Origin: Verrucomicrobiota bacterium
GTDB lineage: Bacteria > Verrucomicrobiota > Verrucomicrobiia > Limisphaerales > J093
Assembly (NCBI GenBank): GCA_022710935.1
Contig: JAKLFY010000006.1
Span: forward strand, 1 to 64,000
Direction of reading: 5' to 3'
DNA: 64,000 bases
Shown here: positions 15,582 to 21,839 of the stretch, in pieces
How positions within the stretch are numbered: position 1 is the first letter of the stretch
Layout of the letters: every line of letters begins with the position of its first letter
Position numbers and translations under genes: made by a program
Notes under the pieces: model-generated
What the model was told of the DNA's origin: nothing
The model's database searches: none
The model's input: the letters and a program-made list of their open reading frames with translations, nothing else

Positions 15582-16160
15582 ATGCGTTTGAACGTGGTCA
15601 ACTATGGGCATCCGGCGCTGCGCCAGCGCGGCGCCCGGATCGAAGCCGTGACGCCCGAGATCCAGTCCCTGGCGGCGAACATGATCGAGACCATGCACGC
15701 CGCACAGGGGATCGGGTTGGCCGGCCAGCAGGTGGCGCAGCCGCTCCAGATCTTCGTGCTCGATCTGCGCGAGGTCACCGACCGGCCCTCGACACTCGAG
15801 TGGGAGGGTGAATCCGCCGCGATCGCTGACCGCATGCCCCTGGTCCTCATCAATCCGGAAGTGACCCCGCTGGACGGGGTCACCGAGACCGGCCCCGAGG
15901 GGTGCCTGAGCTTTCCCGAGATCTTCGCCGAGAAGATCACGCGCCCGGCTTCCGTTCGCGTCACCGCCTGGAACGAGCGCGGCGAGACCATCCGTTTCGC
16001 CTGTGGCGGCTTGCTGGCTCGCGCCGTGCAACATGAGCACGACCATCTGCGCGGCATCCTGTTCATCGACCGCATGACGACCGTGGAAAGGCGCAAATGG
16101 CAGCCGGAACTCGACGCTCTGCAGGACGCCACCAAGGCCGCGCTGAAGAAGGCCGGATGA
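15582..16160 (+). CDS. def: Peptide deformylase
   Basis: Fe2+/Zn2+ hydrolase that removes the formyl group from nascent N-terminal methionine at the ribosome exit. The ATG at 15582 gives a normal 192-residue protein starting MRLNVVNYGHPALRQ. All three active-site motifs are visible: GIGLAGQQ at 43-50, EGCLS at 106-110 with the metal-binding Cys, and QHEHDHLRG at 150-158 with the two His ligands and the catalytic Glu. There is a loop insertion of about ten residues (TLEWEGESAA) relative to short forms. No fmt gene follows; the next gene belongs to a restriction-modification cassette. Confidence 0.95.
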   Translation: MRLNVVNYGHPALRQRGARIEAVTPEIQSLAANMIETMHAAQGIGLAGQQVAQPLQIFVLDLREVTDRPSTLEWEGESAAIADRMPLVLINPEVTPLDGVTETGPEGCLSFPEIFAEKITRPASVRVTAWNERGETIRFACGGLLARAVQHEHDHLRGILFIDRMTTVERRKWQPELDALQDATKAALKKAG

Positions 16161-16354
16161 GCCTTAATCGCCTTGGAACATGTCGAGGCAATGCTACAAC
16201 TGATTTTGGGGTGGCATCTGAGTGCACAGCTGTATAACACCGGGCTATGGTCAGAACCCCGGACAAGCTGACGCCTCCTGGGTTTTGGAGTGACTGGAGG
16301 CACTAGGGGTGCTGCTTACGTCTGATCGCGAGACGGGTGCAAGAGCCGACCGAT

Positions 16355-16759
16355 ATGGACCGCGTTACCAAAACGACACGAAGCCACATCATGGCTTGTG
16401 TCCGCACTCGGGATACCGGCCCGGAGAAGGCTCTTCGGTCTCTCGTGCATCGCCTCGGATATCGCTATTCACTCGCGAGGAAGGACTTACCGGGCAAACC
16501 CGACCTGGTGTTCGTCAGTCGACGAAAGACCATTTTTGTTCACGGCTGCTTCTGGCACGGGCATTCCTGCCGTTACGGCAGACTGCCCAAGAGTCGCCTG
16601 CATTACTGGGGACCGAAAATCGCGCAAAACACGGCTCGGGATCGCTGGCAAGCGAAGGCCTTGCGCTCGAGAGGTTGGCGTGTGATGGTTGTTTGGCAGT
16701 GCGAGCTCAAGAATCAGGACAAACTTGAGCAGCGACTTGTGACCTTTCTCGATGGATAG
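16355..16759 (+). CDS. vsr: Very-short-patch repair endonuclease
   Basis: Vsr nicks the T strand of T:G mismatches that arise when 5-methylcytosine deaminates, protecting the genome from the mutagenic cost of a C5 methyltransferase. The ATG at 16355 is preferred over 16337 because it matches the family start (MDRVTKTTRSHIMACVRTRDT). Active-site features are KPDLVFVSRRKTIFVHGCFWH, with the catalytic Asp and the zinc-site Cys/His, and a later zinc Cys in VVWQCELK. Its end overlaps the start of the methyltransferase gene by eight bases, so the two are coupled. Base composition is clearly lower in GC than the genes around the cassette. Confidence 0.93.
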   Translation: MDRVTKTTRSHIMACVRTRDTGPEKALRSLVHRLGYRYSLARKDLPGKPDLVFVSRRKTIFVHGCFWHGHSCRYGRLPKSRLHYWGPKIAQNTARDRWQAKALRSRGWRVMVVWQCELKNQDKLEQRLVTFLDG

Positions 16760-18089
16760 ACGACCCATTGCAATCGACCTATTTGCGGGCGCTGGCGGTA
16801 TGTCGCTGGGGTTCGAACAGGCAGGATTCGATATCGTTGCAGCGGTGGAAATAGACCCTATTCACGCCGCAGTTCACCACTTCAATTTTCCGCAAACCGC
16901 GTTGCTCGCGAGGTCGATTGTTGGACTAGGGGGCGACGAAGTGCGGGACGCCGCGGGGATAGGCAACAAGACAGTGGATGTCGTATTTGGAGGTCCGCCA
17001 TGCCAGGGCTTTTCCCTGATCGGCAAGCGGATGCTAGAGGATCCTCGAAACCAACTCGTCAAGGAGTTTGTTCGGTTGGTCGGCGAGCTTGGCGCTCGGG
17101 TCTTCGTGTTTGAGAATGTCAAGGGTCTGACCGTCGGTCGGCACCGCGCCTTCCTGGAATCCCTGATCGATGCATTCGACGACCTGGGATATCGCGTGCG
17201 CATCCCCTGGAGGGTGCTGAATGCAATAAACTACGGTGTTCCGCAAGATCGTCAGCGATTGTTCTTGCTGGGGGCAAGGAAAGCAGCCCTGCTTCCGGCC
17301 TATCCAGTCGAAACAACAACCACAGAGAATGACTTGTTTGATCGAAGTAGCAAACGACTGACCCCGACATGCTCTGAAGCGTTGTCTGACTTGCCCGATG
17401 CCGAGCGATGGGATGTCCTCATGGCATCCGACTCCGCTCCAAACGAGATCGCAGCACTGCCGTCCGACTACGCCCGCGAGATGCGGTGTTCGACAGACGA
17501 TGCCTGGCATTTCGGTTATGTGAGAAACTGGAATCCCGAAGTGCTCACGTCCAGCATGCGCACAGTGCACACCGAAATATCACGAAGACGCTTTGCGCAG
17601 ACGAACCAGGGCGATGTGGAACCGATTTCGCGTTTCTTTAAACTGGCACCCGGCGGTGTCAGCAATACGCTCCGCGCTGGAACGGACTCTGCGAGAGGTG
17701 CCTTCACGAGTCCAAGACCTATCCACTATGCGTTCCCCCGCTGCGTCACCGTGCGTGAGATGGCTAGATTACATGGCTATCCCGATTGGTTCCGCTTTCA
17801 CATAACCAAGTGGCACGGTGCGCGCCAAGTCGGCAACTCAGTACCCCCTCCCCTCGCCAGAGCGGTGGCTGGCGCGGTCATGCAAGCCCTCGGCGTCGTC
17901 CCCGTAACTCCTTCTCGCAAGCTTGATCTTGGGCGACCGGAACTGCTGTCAATGGACATGGGTGAAGCCGCCGATTACTGGAAAGTGTCCGTTCCCATAC
18001 ACAAACGGGACCGAAAGAATGGCCTTCATAAGCGAAAACAGTCGGAAATCGAAGCCACCGCGACGATGGCGACAAGGGAATGTCCATGA
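16752..18089 (+). CDS. DNA (cytosine-5-)-methyltransferase
   Basis: A 445-residue type II C5 methyltransferase. The conserved motifs occur in order: I DLFAGAGGMSLGFEQAG, IV FGGPPCQGFSLIGKR with catalytic Cys84, VI FENVKGLTVG, VIII PQDRQRLFLLGAR and X ARQVGNSVPPPLARAVAG. The variable target-recognition region lies at about residues 190-320. The recognition sequence cannot be read from the protein; presence of Vsr implies product sites prone to C-to-T change. The last codons overlap the ATG of the nuclease gene, so all three cassette genes are translationally linked. Confidence 0.95.
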   Translation: MDRRPIAIDLFAGAGGMSLGFEQAGFDIVAAVEIDPIHAAVHHFNFPQTALLARSIVGLGGDEVRDAAGIGNKTVDVVFGGPPCQGFSLIGKRMLEDPRNQLVKEFVRLVGELGARVFVFENVKGLTVGRHRAFLESLIDAFDDLGYRVRIPWRVLNAINYGVPQDRQRLFLLGARKAALLPAYPVETTTTENDLFDRSSKRLTPTCSEALSDLPDAERWDVLMASDSAPNEIAALPSDYAREMRCSTDDAWHFGYVRNWNPEVLTSSMRTVHTEISRRRFAQTNQGDVEPISRFFKLAPGGVSNTLRAGTDSARGAFTSPRPIHYAFPRCVTVREMARLHGYPDWFRFHITKWHGARQVGNSVPPPLARAVAGAVMQALGVVPVTPSRKLDLGRPELLSMDMGEAADYWKVSVPIHKRDRKNGLHKRKQSEIEATATMATRECP

Positions 18090-18883
18090 CCGAGAAGAAG
18101 CGCACAGAGAATAGATACACAAAGCTGATCGAAAGCATCTTTCTCGACGGATATCGCGAAGGAATCACTGAAGTCCCATTTCACCGGGATGCACTCGCGA
18201 AAACAGCTCGAAGACTGCGGGTCACCCTGCCCAAGAACCTCGGCGATGCCATATACTCCATTCGCTACAGAATGCATTTGCCCGATTCGATCGCACGAAC
18301 ACAGCCGCCAGGACAGGAATGGATCATCGAGGGCCGAGGGAAATCGCGGTATGCTTTTCGACTTGTGTCCATAAACCGGATTCTCCCGAACCCCCAGATT
18401 GCGGAAATCAAGATTCCTGATGCGACGCCAGAGATCGTCTCCGCCTACGCCCTTTCGGACGAACAGGCTCTGCTGGCAAAGGTCCGCTATAATCGCCTGC
18501 TCGACATCTTTCTAGGGGTCGCAGCCTATTCCCTGCAGAACCACTTGCGCACCACCGTCTCAGGCCTGGGACAAGTCGAGATCGACGAGATCTACGTGGC
18601 CGTCGACGCTCGAGGGCGGCAGTTCGTGATACCCGTTCAGGCGAAGGGCGGCAGTGACCGGCTGTCTACAGTCCAAACCCGGCAAGACATGGCATGTTGC
18701 TCTCAGAAATTCCCGCAGCTCATATGCCGCCCAATCTCGGCACAGTTCGTGGCTACCGATCTGATCGCGCTGTTTGCACTGAGGGAAGTCGACAAGGAGA
18801 TACGTATTGTGGAGGAAAAGCACTACAAGCTCGTTCCGTTCGAGCAAATCGCTCCGGAGGACCTTCGAATCTACGACTCCTGA
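18080..18883 (+). CDS. Putative type II restriction endonuclease of the PD-(D/E)XK type
   Basis: A 267-residue protein directly after the methyltransferase; ATGs at 18080 and 18086 both overlap the methyltransferase stop. The likely nuclease core is QVEIDEIYVAVDARG followed by FVIPVQAKGG (residues about 166-191), which fits the acidic residue-spacer-(Q/E)XK pattern of PD-(D/E)XK enzymes. The N-terminal third, with basic clusters, may bind DNA. The position in a vsr-methyltransferase cassette makes cognate restriction the natural role. No named restriction family was recognised, so specificity is unknown. Codon use and GC match the other two cassette genes, supporting joint transfer. Confidence 0.75.
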   Translation: MSMTEKKRTENRYTKLIESIFLDGYREGITEVPFHRDALAKTARRLRVTLPKNLGDAIYSIRYRMHLPDSIARTQPPGQEWIIEGRGKSRYAFRLVSINRILPNPQIAEIKIPDATPEIVSAYALSDEQALLAKVRYNRLLDIFLGVAAYSLQNHLRTTVSGLGQVEIDEIYVAVDARGRQFVIPVQAKGGSDRLSTVQTRQDMACCSQKFPQLICRPISAQFVATDLIALFALREVDKEIRIVEEKHYKLVPFEQIAPEDLRIYDS

Positions 18884-19065
18884 GAGGCGACACCGTGGCT
18901 CAACTCGGAAGAGAGGAATTCGACGGTGCATCGGGTGCGATCCCTTTGGGCCAATCGCGTGGGCAAGCCAATGCCATCCCGTCACTCGGTGCCAGCCTGT
19001 TCGAATCCGGTCAAGTCTTGTCAACCAAGGGCGACAGTGGCAGAGCGGACGGCGATCTGAACCCG

Positions 19066-20862
19066 GTGAAACAGGCCGTCATTTTGGCGGGGGGCAAGGG
19101 AACGCGGCTGCGCTCGGTGCTGGGCGATCTGCCCAAGCCGCTGATCCCGATTGGCGGCAAACCGCTCCTCGAACATCACTTCGAGCTGTGTCGCGCGCAC
19201 GGCTTCGAGCGGGTTCTGGTGCTCGCCGGGCATCGGGCCGAGCGCATCCAGGCCCATTGCGGCGACGGGAGCCGCTGGGGGCTGCGGATCGAGTGCGAGG
19301 TCGAGCGCGAACCGCTGGGCACGGCGGGGGCCGTCCTGGCCGCGTTTTCCCGGCTGCCCGAGCGGTTTCTTGTGCTCTATGGGGATGAGATGCTCAATGT
19401 GGACCTCGACAGGATGTGGCGCGCCCATCTCGAGGCCGGCGCGGCGGCCACCCTGCTGCTCCACCCCAACGATCACCCCCTCGATTCCGATCTGGTCGAC
19501 GTGGACGAGCACGACTGGATCCGCGCGTTTCACCATCGTCCGCATCCGCCGGAGGCCTTGTTCCAGAACCTGGTGAACGCGGCGTTGTACGTCGTCGAGC
19601 GGTCTGCCTTGACGCCATGGGCTGACTCGAACAAGGCGCTCGATTTCGGCCAGGACCTGTTCCCGGCCATGCTCGATCGAGGGAGCAGGCTGCGCGGCTA
19701 TCGAAGCCCCGAGTACATCAAGGACATCGGCACGCCGGACCGCTACGCGCGGGTCTGCCGGGAGCACGAGGCCGGCGTCGTGGCGGCCAGCAGCCTCGCC
19801 GTGCCGCAGAAGGCGGTTTTCCTCGATCGCGACGGCACTCTCAACCGGGAAGTGGGCGGCGTTTGCGCGCCCGATCGACTCGAGTTGTTGCCCGGCGTGC
19901 CCGCGGCCATTCGCGAGCTCAATCACCGCGGCTGGCGCGTGGTGGTTGTCACCAACCAACCGGTGGTGGCCAAGGGCTTCTGCACCGAGGCCGATGTCCA
20001 GCGCGTCCACAACAAGCTCGAAACGCTGCTCGGCGCCGCCCACGCCTTCGTCGACCGTATCTACTGGTGTCCGCACCATCCCGAGCGCGGTTTTCCCGGC
20101 GAACGCCCCGATCTGAAGCTCGACTGCGCGTGCCGCAAGCCCAAGCCGGGCCTGGTGCTGCGGGCCGCGCACGATCTGAACATCGACCTGCGCGCCTCCT
20201 GGTTCGTGGGCGACAGCACCACGGACCTCGCCACGGCCTCGAATGCGGGCGTTCGATCGATCCTGGTGCGGACCGGACACGCCGGACAGGACGGCAAGTT
20301 CGCCGCCCGGCCGGATCATGTGTTCGAGACTCTGGCCGAGGCCGTCGCGTGGATTGTGAGCGCAGGCAACGCGCACCGGATTTGCTCAGACACACGAGGG
20401 GCGACGCCTGAATTCAAAGCGAACACAATTCAGGATTCGACATCACAGCCAGAGCTTTCTACTTTTGCGGTGTTGTATGAGCGAACACGCACAGCCAAAC
20501 AGGATCCAAGTCCGTTGGCCGACTCTGGCATGGCGCTTGAATCAGCCGAAGCAAACACCCGAGGAGGTGGCTGCCCAGCGCCAGCGCATGATGAAAGCCG
20601 ATCAGAGCGCCTTGCGCGCATCCGCGACGAAGAAGGACGACTCCGCGCATGGGCCGAGCGGCAACGGATTCTAGTGTCCGACTTGCCTCCGGCTGAGGAC
20701 TTGCAGGGCGAACATGGGGTTCACGGCGATCGGACCTCGGACAAATCACCCGATCGGCCCCCGGAGCACGGAAAAGGCGGCATGCGCCCGCCTGCATTCG
20801 ACCGGGAACGGGGAACCCCGAACCCCGAACCCCGAACCCCGAACCCCAACGACCGGCCATGA
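19066..20862 (+). CDS. Fused sugar-1-phosphate nucleotidyltransferase and D,D-heptose bisphosphate phosphatase (HddC-GmhB)
   Basis: A bifunctional enzyme starting at a GTG (VKQAVILAGGKGTRL). Residues 1-240 form a nucleotidyltransferase (LAGGKGTRLRSVLGDLPKPL, LYGDEMLNVD, EYIKDIGTPDRY) of the heptose-1-phosphate guanylyltransferase type. Residues about 248-435 form a HAD phosphatase of the GmhB/HisB-N class (VFLDRDGTLN, VVTNQPVVAKG, zinc ligands in YWCPHHPE and CACRKPKPG, WFVGDSTTDLATA). Together with the next gene, this gives three steps towards GDP-D-glycero-D-manno-heptose for surface glycans. A 160-residue tail after residue 436 looks unlike protein and includes a GAACCCC tandem repeat, yet its TGA overlaps the ATG of the next gene. 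True translation may end earlier in function if not in sequence. Confidence 0.88.
   Translation: MKQAVILAGGKGTRLRSVLGDLPKPLIPIGGKPLLEHHFELCRAHGFERVLVLAGHRAERIQAHCGDGSRWGLRIECEVEREPLGTAGAVLAAFSRLPERFLVLYGDEMLNVDLDRMWRAHLEAGAAATLLLHPNDHPLDSDLVDVDEHDWIRAFHHRPHPPEALFQNLVNAALYVVERSALTPWADSNKALDFGQDLFPAMLDRGSRLRGYRSPEYIKDIGTPDRYARVCREHEAGVVAASSLAVPQKAVFLDRDGTLNREVGGVCAPDRLELLPGVPAAIRELNHRGWRVVVVTNQPVVAKGFCTEADVQRVHNKLETLLGAAHAFVDRIYWCPHHPERGFPGERPDLKLDCACRKPKPGLVLRAAHDLNIDLRASWFVGDSTTDLATASNAGVRSILVRTGHAGQDGKFAARPDHVFETLAEAVAWIVSAGNAHRICSDTRGATPEFKANTIQDSTSQPELSTFAVLYERTRTAKQDPSPLADSGMALESAEANTRGGGCPAPAHDESRSERLARIRDEEGRLRAWAERQRILVSDLPPAEDLQGEHGVHGDRTSDKSPDRPPEHGKGGMRPPAFDRERGTPNPEPRTPNPNDRP
20813..20849 (+). 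repeat. GAACCCC heptamer tandem repeat
   Basis: About five head-to-tail copies of CCGAACC/GAACCCC lie within the 3' tail of the HddC-GmhB reading frame, ending ten bases before the ATG of the heptose kinase. A seven-base unit changes frame whenever copy number changes by anything but a multiple of three. Confidence 0.85.
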
Positions 20863-21839
20863 TCATCAGTCGCACACCGCTCCGGATGAGTTTTGTCGGA
20901 GGCGGCAGTGACCTGCCGGCCTATTACCGTCTCCACGGCGGCGCGGTGGTGTCCACCGCCATCAACAAGTACGTGTATGTGACCGTCAACCCGAAGTTCG
21001 ACGACAACATCCGTGTCAGTTACTCGAGGACTGAGGAAGTGGACGAGGTGGCCAGGCTGCAGCATCCCCTGGTTCGCGAATCGCTTCGCCACCTGGACAT
21101 CGCCGGGGGTGTCGAAATCACATCCATCGCCGACATCCCGTCCCGCGGAACGGGGCTTGGATCCTCGAGCGCGTTCACGGTGGGCCTGCTTCACGCGCTC
21201 CACGCCTGGCGGGGGCGCTATCGGTCGGCCGAGCAGTTGGCCAGGGAAAGCTGCCTCATCGAGATCGAGCGTTGCGGCGAGCCGATCGGCAAGCAGGACC
21301 AATACGCGGCGGCCTTCGGCGGCTTCAACTTCATCGAGTTCTCCCCCGACGAGCGCGTTGTGGTCCAGCCGATCCTCTGTCGGCACGAGACGCTCGAGCG
21401 GCTTCAGGACAACCTCGTCGCCTTCTACACGGGCATCACCCGGCCCGCCGCCAAGGTCCTGCGCGAGAAACAGCGCCGCATCGCGGCCGAAGCGGACAAG
21501 CAGGCCGTGCTCGGGCGCATGGTTGACTTGGCGCGCACGCTGCGCGACGAACTCCAGAACAACAACCTCGACGCCTTCGGCGAGCTCATCCACCAGAACT
21601 GGGTGCTCAAAAAACAGCTCTCGGACGACGTCAGCACCGGCCAGATCGATGCCTGGTACGACGCAGCCCGGGGCGCGGGGGCGGTCGGCGGCAAGATCCT
21701 CGGGGCCGGTTCCGGCGGCTTCCTCCTGTTCTACGCCCCCCGACGGCGGCACCGGGCGATTCGCGACGCCCTGGGCGAGTTGCGCCCGATCCCGATGCGT
21801 TTCGAGCCGCAGGGGAGCCGGATCATCTTCGTGCATTGA
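20859..21839 (+). CDS. hddA: D-glycero-alpha-D-manno-heptose 7-phosphate kinase (GHMP family)
   Basis: A 326-residue GHMP kinase that phosphorylates heptose-7-phosphate at C1, the step before the phosphatase and guanylyltransferase encoded upstream. Features are the N-terminal IISRTPLRMSFVGGGSDLP, the phosphate-binding loop PSRGTGLGSSSAFTVG at 94-109, GEPIGKQDQYAAAFGG, and the C-terminal GGKILGAGSGGFLLFY. This pattern is that of HddA rather than galactokinase or mevalonate kinase. The start overlaps the stop of the upstream fusion (ATGA). The isomerase GmhA, needed to start the route, is not in the window. Confidence 0.9.
   Translation: MIISRTPLRMSFVGGGSDLPAYYRLHGGAVVSTAINKYVYVTVNPKFDDNIRVSYSRTEEVDEVARLQHPLVRESLRHLDIAGGVEITSIADIPSRGTGLGSSSAFTVGLLHALHAWRGRYRSAEQLARESCLIEIERCGEPIGKQDQYAAAFGGFNFIEFSPDERVVVQPILCRHETLERLQDNLVAFYTGITRPAAKVLREKQRRIAAEADKQAVLGRMVDLARTLRDELQNNNLDAFGELIHQNWVLKKQLSDDVSTGQIDAWYDAARGAGAVGGKILGAGSGGFLLFYAPRRRHRAIRDALGELRPIPMRFEPQGSRIIFVH

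Follow-up and report, generated by a model that had tools for sequence, protein, structure and literature searches.

The HddC-GmhB frame and its C-terminal tail

The window, a stretch of 64,000 nucleotides at the start of contig JAKLFY010000006.1 of a Verrucomicrobiota bacterium (assembly GCA_022710935.1), contains on its forward strand an open reading frame of 722 codons (18694-20862). This frame fuses an HddC-like nucleotidyltransferase to a GmhB-like phosphatase and is followed by the gene for an HddA-like GHMP kinase (hddA). The names HddC, GmhB and HddA are taken from best hits and gene order alone, and all three proteins score below the NCBI equivalog cut-offs (97.3 vs 300 bits for HddC, 157.5 vs 178 for GmhB and 167 vs 600 for HddA). 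The best stretch of the phosphatase model ends at residue 556 (20361), which leaves a tail of about 166 residues up to the TGA at 20860-20862. The initial annotation had put the tail at about 160 residues, close to the measured length; it had also described an overlap of this TGA with the hddA ATG (20859-20861) and a GAACCCC tandem repeat in the tail. Both can be read directly in the sequence, the repeat as 5.0 copies that are 100% identical. The features of the locus are as follows:

19033-20361 (+): fused HddC-like nucleotidyltransferase and GmhB-like phosphatase, from best-hit names, profile matches and matches of query residues 3-443 or 10-443 inside single open frames of 450 codons in two relatives (G011 and G009)
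20362-20459 (+): tail stretch common to the same-genus relative G001, from alignment (88% over 99 bp, 20361-20459)
20446-20448 (+): CAG in the window, aligned to TAG, the gene end, in G001
20460-20856 (+): lineage-specific insert of 397 bp, its limits set by breaks in the G001 alignment at 20459 and 20857
20460-20465 (+): TACTTT, a weak candidate -10 box picked by eye where the insert begins on its left side
20470-20731 (+): remnant (N-terminal part) of a Kinase-PolyVal gene, read in the HddC frame and with DNA homology up to 20731
20477-20674 (+): small ORF of 65 amino acids in another frame than the kinase remnant, from the ORF list and counterparts in relatives
20732-20812 (+): stretch between the kinase remnant and the array, from sequence comparison
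20813-20847 (+): perfect tandem array of five GAACCCC units, from a repeat search
20859-20862 (+): ATGA, in which the start of hddA overlaps the fused frame's stop, read in the sequence
20859-21839 (+): HddA-like GHMP kinase gene hddA, from best-hit name and profile match

Directly upstream of hddC lies a type II restriction-modification pair (MTase 16752-18089, REase 18080-18883), whose REase gene is overlapped in another frame by the N-terminal stretch of the long frame (18694-19032). HddC itself probably starts at GTG 18895, TTG 19018 or a nearby candidate. In place of window positions 16153-18821, G001 has 666 bases without blastn similarity, while the flanks (16001-16152 and 18822-19100) match; this part of the window is apparently a swapped cassette.

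The composition of the tail differs from that of the enzyme. Read in the HddC frame, GC3 is 0.84 in GmhB vs 0.53 in 20362-20459, stays at 0.51 over the small ORF (up to 20676) and returns to 0.67-0.71 in 20677-20859.

Most of the tail lies in a lineage-specific insert

Protein relatives were searched for in 40 genomes, the genome of the window included, and were present in all 40. Junctions with hddA were examined in the six relatives with long fused matches (G001, G004, G005, G006, G009 and G011), weaker matches being left out. In the alignment of G001 with the window, identity is 91.3% on the left side, as far as 20459, and 92.6% on the right, beginning at 20857. In the five other relatives the gene stops earlier than in G001, which shares the tail stretch 20362-20459. 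The distance between the shared CTTTC and the hddA ATG is 399 nt in the window vs 3 nt in G001, a net difference of 396 bp (3 x 132, or 132 codons) that keeps the frame. None of the six junctions contains the insert; in each of them the gene stops either at the hddA start or no more than 15 nt away from it.

An overlap of the same kind between stop and start occurs as ATGA in G004, G005, G009 and G011 and as GTGA in G006. The overlap with hddA is therefore probably old, since in these five relatives the phosphatase stop overlaps the hddA start directly. Judged from the alignments, what is peculiar to the window is the 397 bp ahead of this overlap together with the missing TAG. A deletion in G001 was rejected as the main reading, as the five further relatives also lack the insert; its loss in the relatives rather than gain in the window would be the less parsimonious history. 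We saw no target-site duplication, the longest word common to both insert ends being 6 nt. The insert was also rejected as a dispersed repeat: the 493-bp region has a single match (E <= 0.001) in its own genome, and exact GAACCCC x2 is found there at one place.

The insert contains the remnant of a kinase gene

A second place in the G001 genome (contig C66) matches positions 20498-20731 with 76% identity and no gaps. The match there sits inside a frame related to one in genome G023 (locus L041, 663-1337), which matches the Kinase-PolyVal family PF18762 (Pfam, E 1.3e-12, 48.5 bits vs a cut-off of 27); in the same scan the G001 frame itself (L039, 1389-2702) had no Pfam match. Kinase matches were found in 7 of 58 genomes, including the query source G023 and the genome of the window, down to a weakest E of 4.4e-4. 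In the latter genome the fragment in the tail is the sole kinase match at E <= 0.001.

The remnant begins with GTG 20470, where contig C66 of G001 has ATG. Its homology stops after the residues GEHGVH, ahead of the invariant lysine of the family alignment, and the catalytic core is absent: the window copy has neither K96, which is invariant, nor any of D207, N212 and D224, which are nearly so (A5 numbering). The G001 copy is itself decayed, covering query residues 1-161 of 224 with its 3' end missing. It lies at another site than the window copy, between nadA-like and ACT-domain-like genes (named by eye). A complete unit of small ORF and kinase was not found at the gmhB/hddA site in any genome examined. 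For 20732-20812 there was no convincing relative among the loci compared, the matches falling on the adjoining array, which itself matches only similar arrays.

The kinase domain of polyvalent proteins, PF18762, has been described as being without the C-terminal subdomain and as occurring mainly in prophage polyvalent proteins of the Verrucomicrobia-Chlamydia group and Bacteroidetes (Iyer et al. 2017, PMC5512222). The same account notes cassette-like smaller ORFs near Kinase-PolyVal in Verrucomicrobium spinosum and mentions stand-alone versions for Bacteroidetes. A structural model of the kinase at one related locus (L085, mean pLDDT 76) gave its best alignments with small kinases, OspG among them (Z 6.7, rmsd 3.9, 139 residues aligned), a Z score below the clear level of the tool that may come from common arrangement alone. 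A Foldseek search with this model returned no match at E <= 0.001.

A small ORF overlaps the kinase gene out of phase

The small ORF in the insert is uninterrupted, keeps its ATG and is 64% identical to its counterpart in G001 (contig C66); in its own frame GC3 is 0.76. No family in Pfam, NCBIfam, PHROGs or PADLOC matched it above threshold (best sub-threshold E 0.038). The protein is predicted to form two helices and two strands (pLDDT 81, pTM 0.36).

Counterparts of the small ORF occur at the same place in related loci. A contig scan yielded 52 such loci, of which 48 carry a verrucomicrobial title, two just 'bacterium' and two 'Proteobacteria'. For the frame analysis 48 of the 52 were used; L056 was left out because of a contig edge, L066 and L086 because no small ORF could be placed, and L105 because it had no start in range. 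Starts of the small ORF were picked by rule, ATG being preferred and the length nearest 63 codons taken.

In pairwise substitutions within groups of nine and seventeen loci, the third position of the small frame varies most until about 45 nt before its stop; for most of the small ORF's length no such constraint is seen on the kinase frame. Constraint on the kinase frame is clear in those final 45 nt among the nine loci, and the picture is mixed among the seventeen. No stop interrupts the kinase frame across the small ORF in 46 of the 48 loci vs 21.5 expected when small-ORF codons are resampled synonymously, an excess weakened by the relatedness of the loci. We therefore give the counts also for clusters open in all members. 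At 60% identity 12 of 14 clusters were open (6.3 expected, P 0.001 under the most lenient null) and at 45% identity 10 of 11 (4.7 expected, P 0.0005, likewise most lenient). The coarsest clusters, at 35% identity, gave a non-significant five of six (3.4 expected, P 0.08-0.18, the upper value under the most lenient null). When a single locus stood for each cluster, the frame was open in 13/14, 11/11 and 6/6 cases at 60, 45 and 35%, a choice that hid L102 and/or L104, the two loci in which the kinase frame is closed.

The starts of the two frames tend to lie close together. A kinase-frame ATG precedes the small-ORF start by 10 nt in 15 of the 48 loci and by 7 nt in nine, so that two ATGs 7 or 10 nt apart occur in 24/48; at any other offset up to 30 nt an ATG is present in at most two loci. 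Nine loci have a start codon at +32 instead, and 15 of the 48 follow none of the three start patterns. Our reading is that kinase and small protein would be translated from neighbouring starts in two frames. We also considered a programmed -1 frameshift from the small ORF into the kinase, a less likely route, which would leave the open kinase frame upstream unexplained and for which no shared slippery site was seen by eye. Leaderless transcription from a TANNNT box such as the TACTTT at the edge of the insert is a guess, as the positions of possible -10 boxes in the relatives cluster only loosely.

Neighbours of 46 of the 52 loci were scanned (85 ORFs, those exceeding 800 codons left out), and no single genomic context was seen among these diverse ORFs. 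The commonest neighbour family accounted for 4/85 ORFs in Pfam (best 25 of 66 families) and 2/85 in PADLOC (best 25 of 103 families). Some of the units adjoin restriction genes: a type III Res gene by L041 and L054, and an HsdR-like sequence by L050 (by eye).

Long out-of-phase overlaps are rare in bacteria, and the remnant points to one that is conserved across related loci. We tentatively propose, with slightly more doubt than confidence, that the fragment is the fossil of an undescribed dual-coded verrucomicrobial pair, in which a protein of about 60 amino acids and a kinase lacking the C-lobe are encoded at varied sites, their ATGs separated by 7 or 10 nt in half of the loci. If so, the first ~50 residues of the kinase would be a shifted reading of the small gene, and the geometry would tie the expression of both products as in a toxin/antitoxin or effector/regulator pair. 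Since the overlap is conserved across related loci, dual coding can be tested by ribosome profiling in a Verrucomicrobium with an intact unit. A literature search, limited in scope, returned no title or abstract on the overlapping pair or on a repeat switch of the kind considered below.

The small ORF in the window might alternatively still be a working gene, for example an orphan antitoxin-like protein that outlived the decayed kinase. Its uninterrupted frame, retained ATG, similarity to the G001 counterpart and own-frame GC3 agree with this. The G001 copy, however, likewise sits in a decayed unit with the kinase end missing, and a single pairwise comparison fails to separate old from present constraint; we consider a working gene unlikely.

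The GAACCCC array is poorly placed as a switch

The array is the only perfect period-7 array of at least 2.5 copies in the window, and exact tandem GAACCCC (two units) occurs at one place only in the 7.5-Mb genome. It lies near the right end of the insert, in the last 16 codons of the frame and after all catalytic domains, where it is read as TPNPEPRTPNP. We modelled copy numbers from 2 to 8. With 2, 5 or 8 copies the frame ends at the TGA at 20860 that overlaps the hddA ATG; with 3 or 6 it runs in frame into hddA, so that HddC, GmhB and HddA would form one polypeptide; 4 or 7 copies lead to a stop that begins at base 51 of hddA. The HddC and GmhB domains and the hddA ATG remain intact in every case.

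Three tandem units of GAACCCC were found in 3 of 293 genomes of the order, that of the window included, vs 1/293 for the reversed control; for GAACCCN the counts were 8/117, again with the window's genome, and 4/117. The excess is small, because the reversed pattern was also matched. The 12 array contexts listed lie in or beside frames of varied length, and such arrays are therefore sporadic in the order and unconnected to heptose genes. Loci L107 and L131 (contig C484 of G108) carry several GAACCCT and GAACCCC arrays on one contig, one of them beside a short GTAGTCA-like repeat.

The initial annotation had suggested a phase-variation switch, in which GAACCCC copy number sets whether ribosomes reach the overlap with hddA, as a switch for a heptose-containing surface glycan; such a switch would act through the level of HddA. 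This reading is invited by a unit whose length is no multiple of three, present in five perfect copies immediately ahead of a stop/start overlap, and the idea that a change in copy number alters the end point of translation stands insofar as the modelled end point does shift. No enzyme domain and no hddA ATG is lost by it, however, and no product is removed. The array is also absent from the junction in G001 and the five other relatives, and similar arrays occur elsewhere in the order. The array is poorly placed as an on/off switch, and we regard phase variation here as very improbable; an action of copy number on HddA level through coupling is a predicted possibility of low probability. The other option raised in the initial annotation, a fortuitous tail with the real gene ending earlier, is essentially right in its first part, as the insert-free junctions of all six relatives indicate. 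Its second part fails for this genome, where no earlier stop is left in frame.

Origin of the tail

Taken together, we consider it highly probable that the tail arises by in-frame read-through into a gene remnant located between gmhB and hddA. A unit consisting of an ORF of about 60 amino acids that overlaps the start of a Kinase-PolyVal gene out of phase would have arrived between the two genes. Most of the kinase would then have been lost, leaving its first third, the unmatched stretch and the GAACCCC array; the order of events would thus be insertion, 3' loss and growth of the repeat by slippage. As the gmhB TAG of G001 is replaced by CAG, ribosomes leaving gmhB would continue in the frame of the kinase as far as the old TGA/ATG overlap with hddA. 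That frame is free of stops across the small ORF in nearly all relatives, which would account for the open tail; over the small ORF the tail would be open yet not protein-like because it reads the codons of another protein in a shifted frame. Translation of the tail is probable, since no earlier stop is left in frame, and translational coupling to hddA may well continue. It would then be the read-through of a gene remnant rather than an annotation error.

Two further explanations have little to recommend them. A genuine ancestral C-terminal domain of HddC-GmhB, lost in the relatives, would fit the uninterrupted frame and the stretch 20362-20459 shared with G001, but a gene at another place in G001 matches part of the insert, the HddC-frame GC3 is unlike that of the enzyme part and all six junctions are without the tail insert, so we give it almost no credence. 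An assembly artefact joining two loci might be suspected in a genome of 259 contigs with 4.29% estimated contamination, but is hardly believable with flanks collinear with G001 on both sides and an insert (397 bp) and array (35 bp) short enough that reads or read pairs would be expected to span them.

The finding is an ordinary evolutionary accident, the in-frame fusion of a remnant where a stop is missing. An automatic pipeline would report an enzyme of 722 residues whose C-terminus is spurious, and the repeat risks being mistaken for a glycan switch. The main interest lies in the family from which the remnant derives: the conserved out-of-phase gene overlap in Verrucomicrobiota is more interesting than the tail itself.

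Comparison with known systems

The array resembles simple-sequence phase variation, as in Haemophilus, in being a tandem unit not divisible by three (7 bp, five copies) within a sugar-pathway frame. It differs in its position at the 3' end after all domains and in that no modelled copy number silences a gene.

In toxin-antitoxin operons a small protein gene can overlap the start of a larger enzyme gene by a few bases. The unit described here shares this arrangement; unlike those operons, most of its small ORF is overlapped, and neither the small ORF of the window nor the L041 kinase has a PADLOC match.

In profile terms there is a likeness to Kinase-PolyVal itself, through the intact relative at L041. 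The window copy differs from that family in being a fragment without the catalytic core. Compared with the versions set out in the account of polyvalent proteins (PMC5512222), the gene here is a stand-alone one of about 220-275 amino acids whose 5' end is overlapped by a small ORF.
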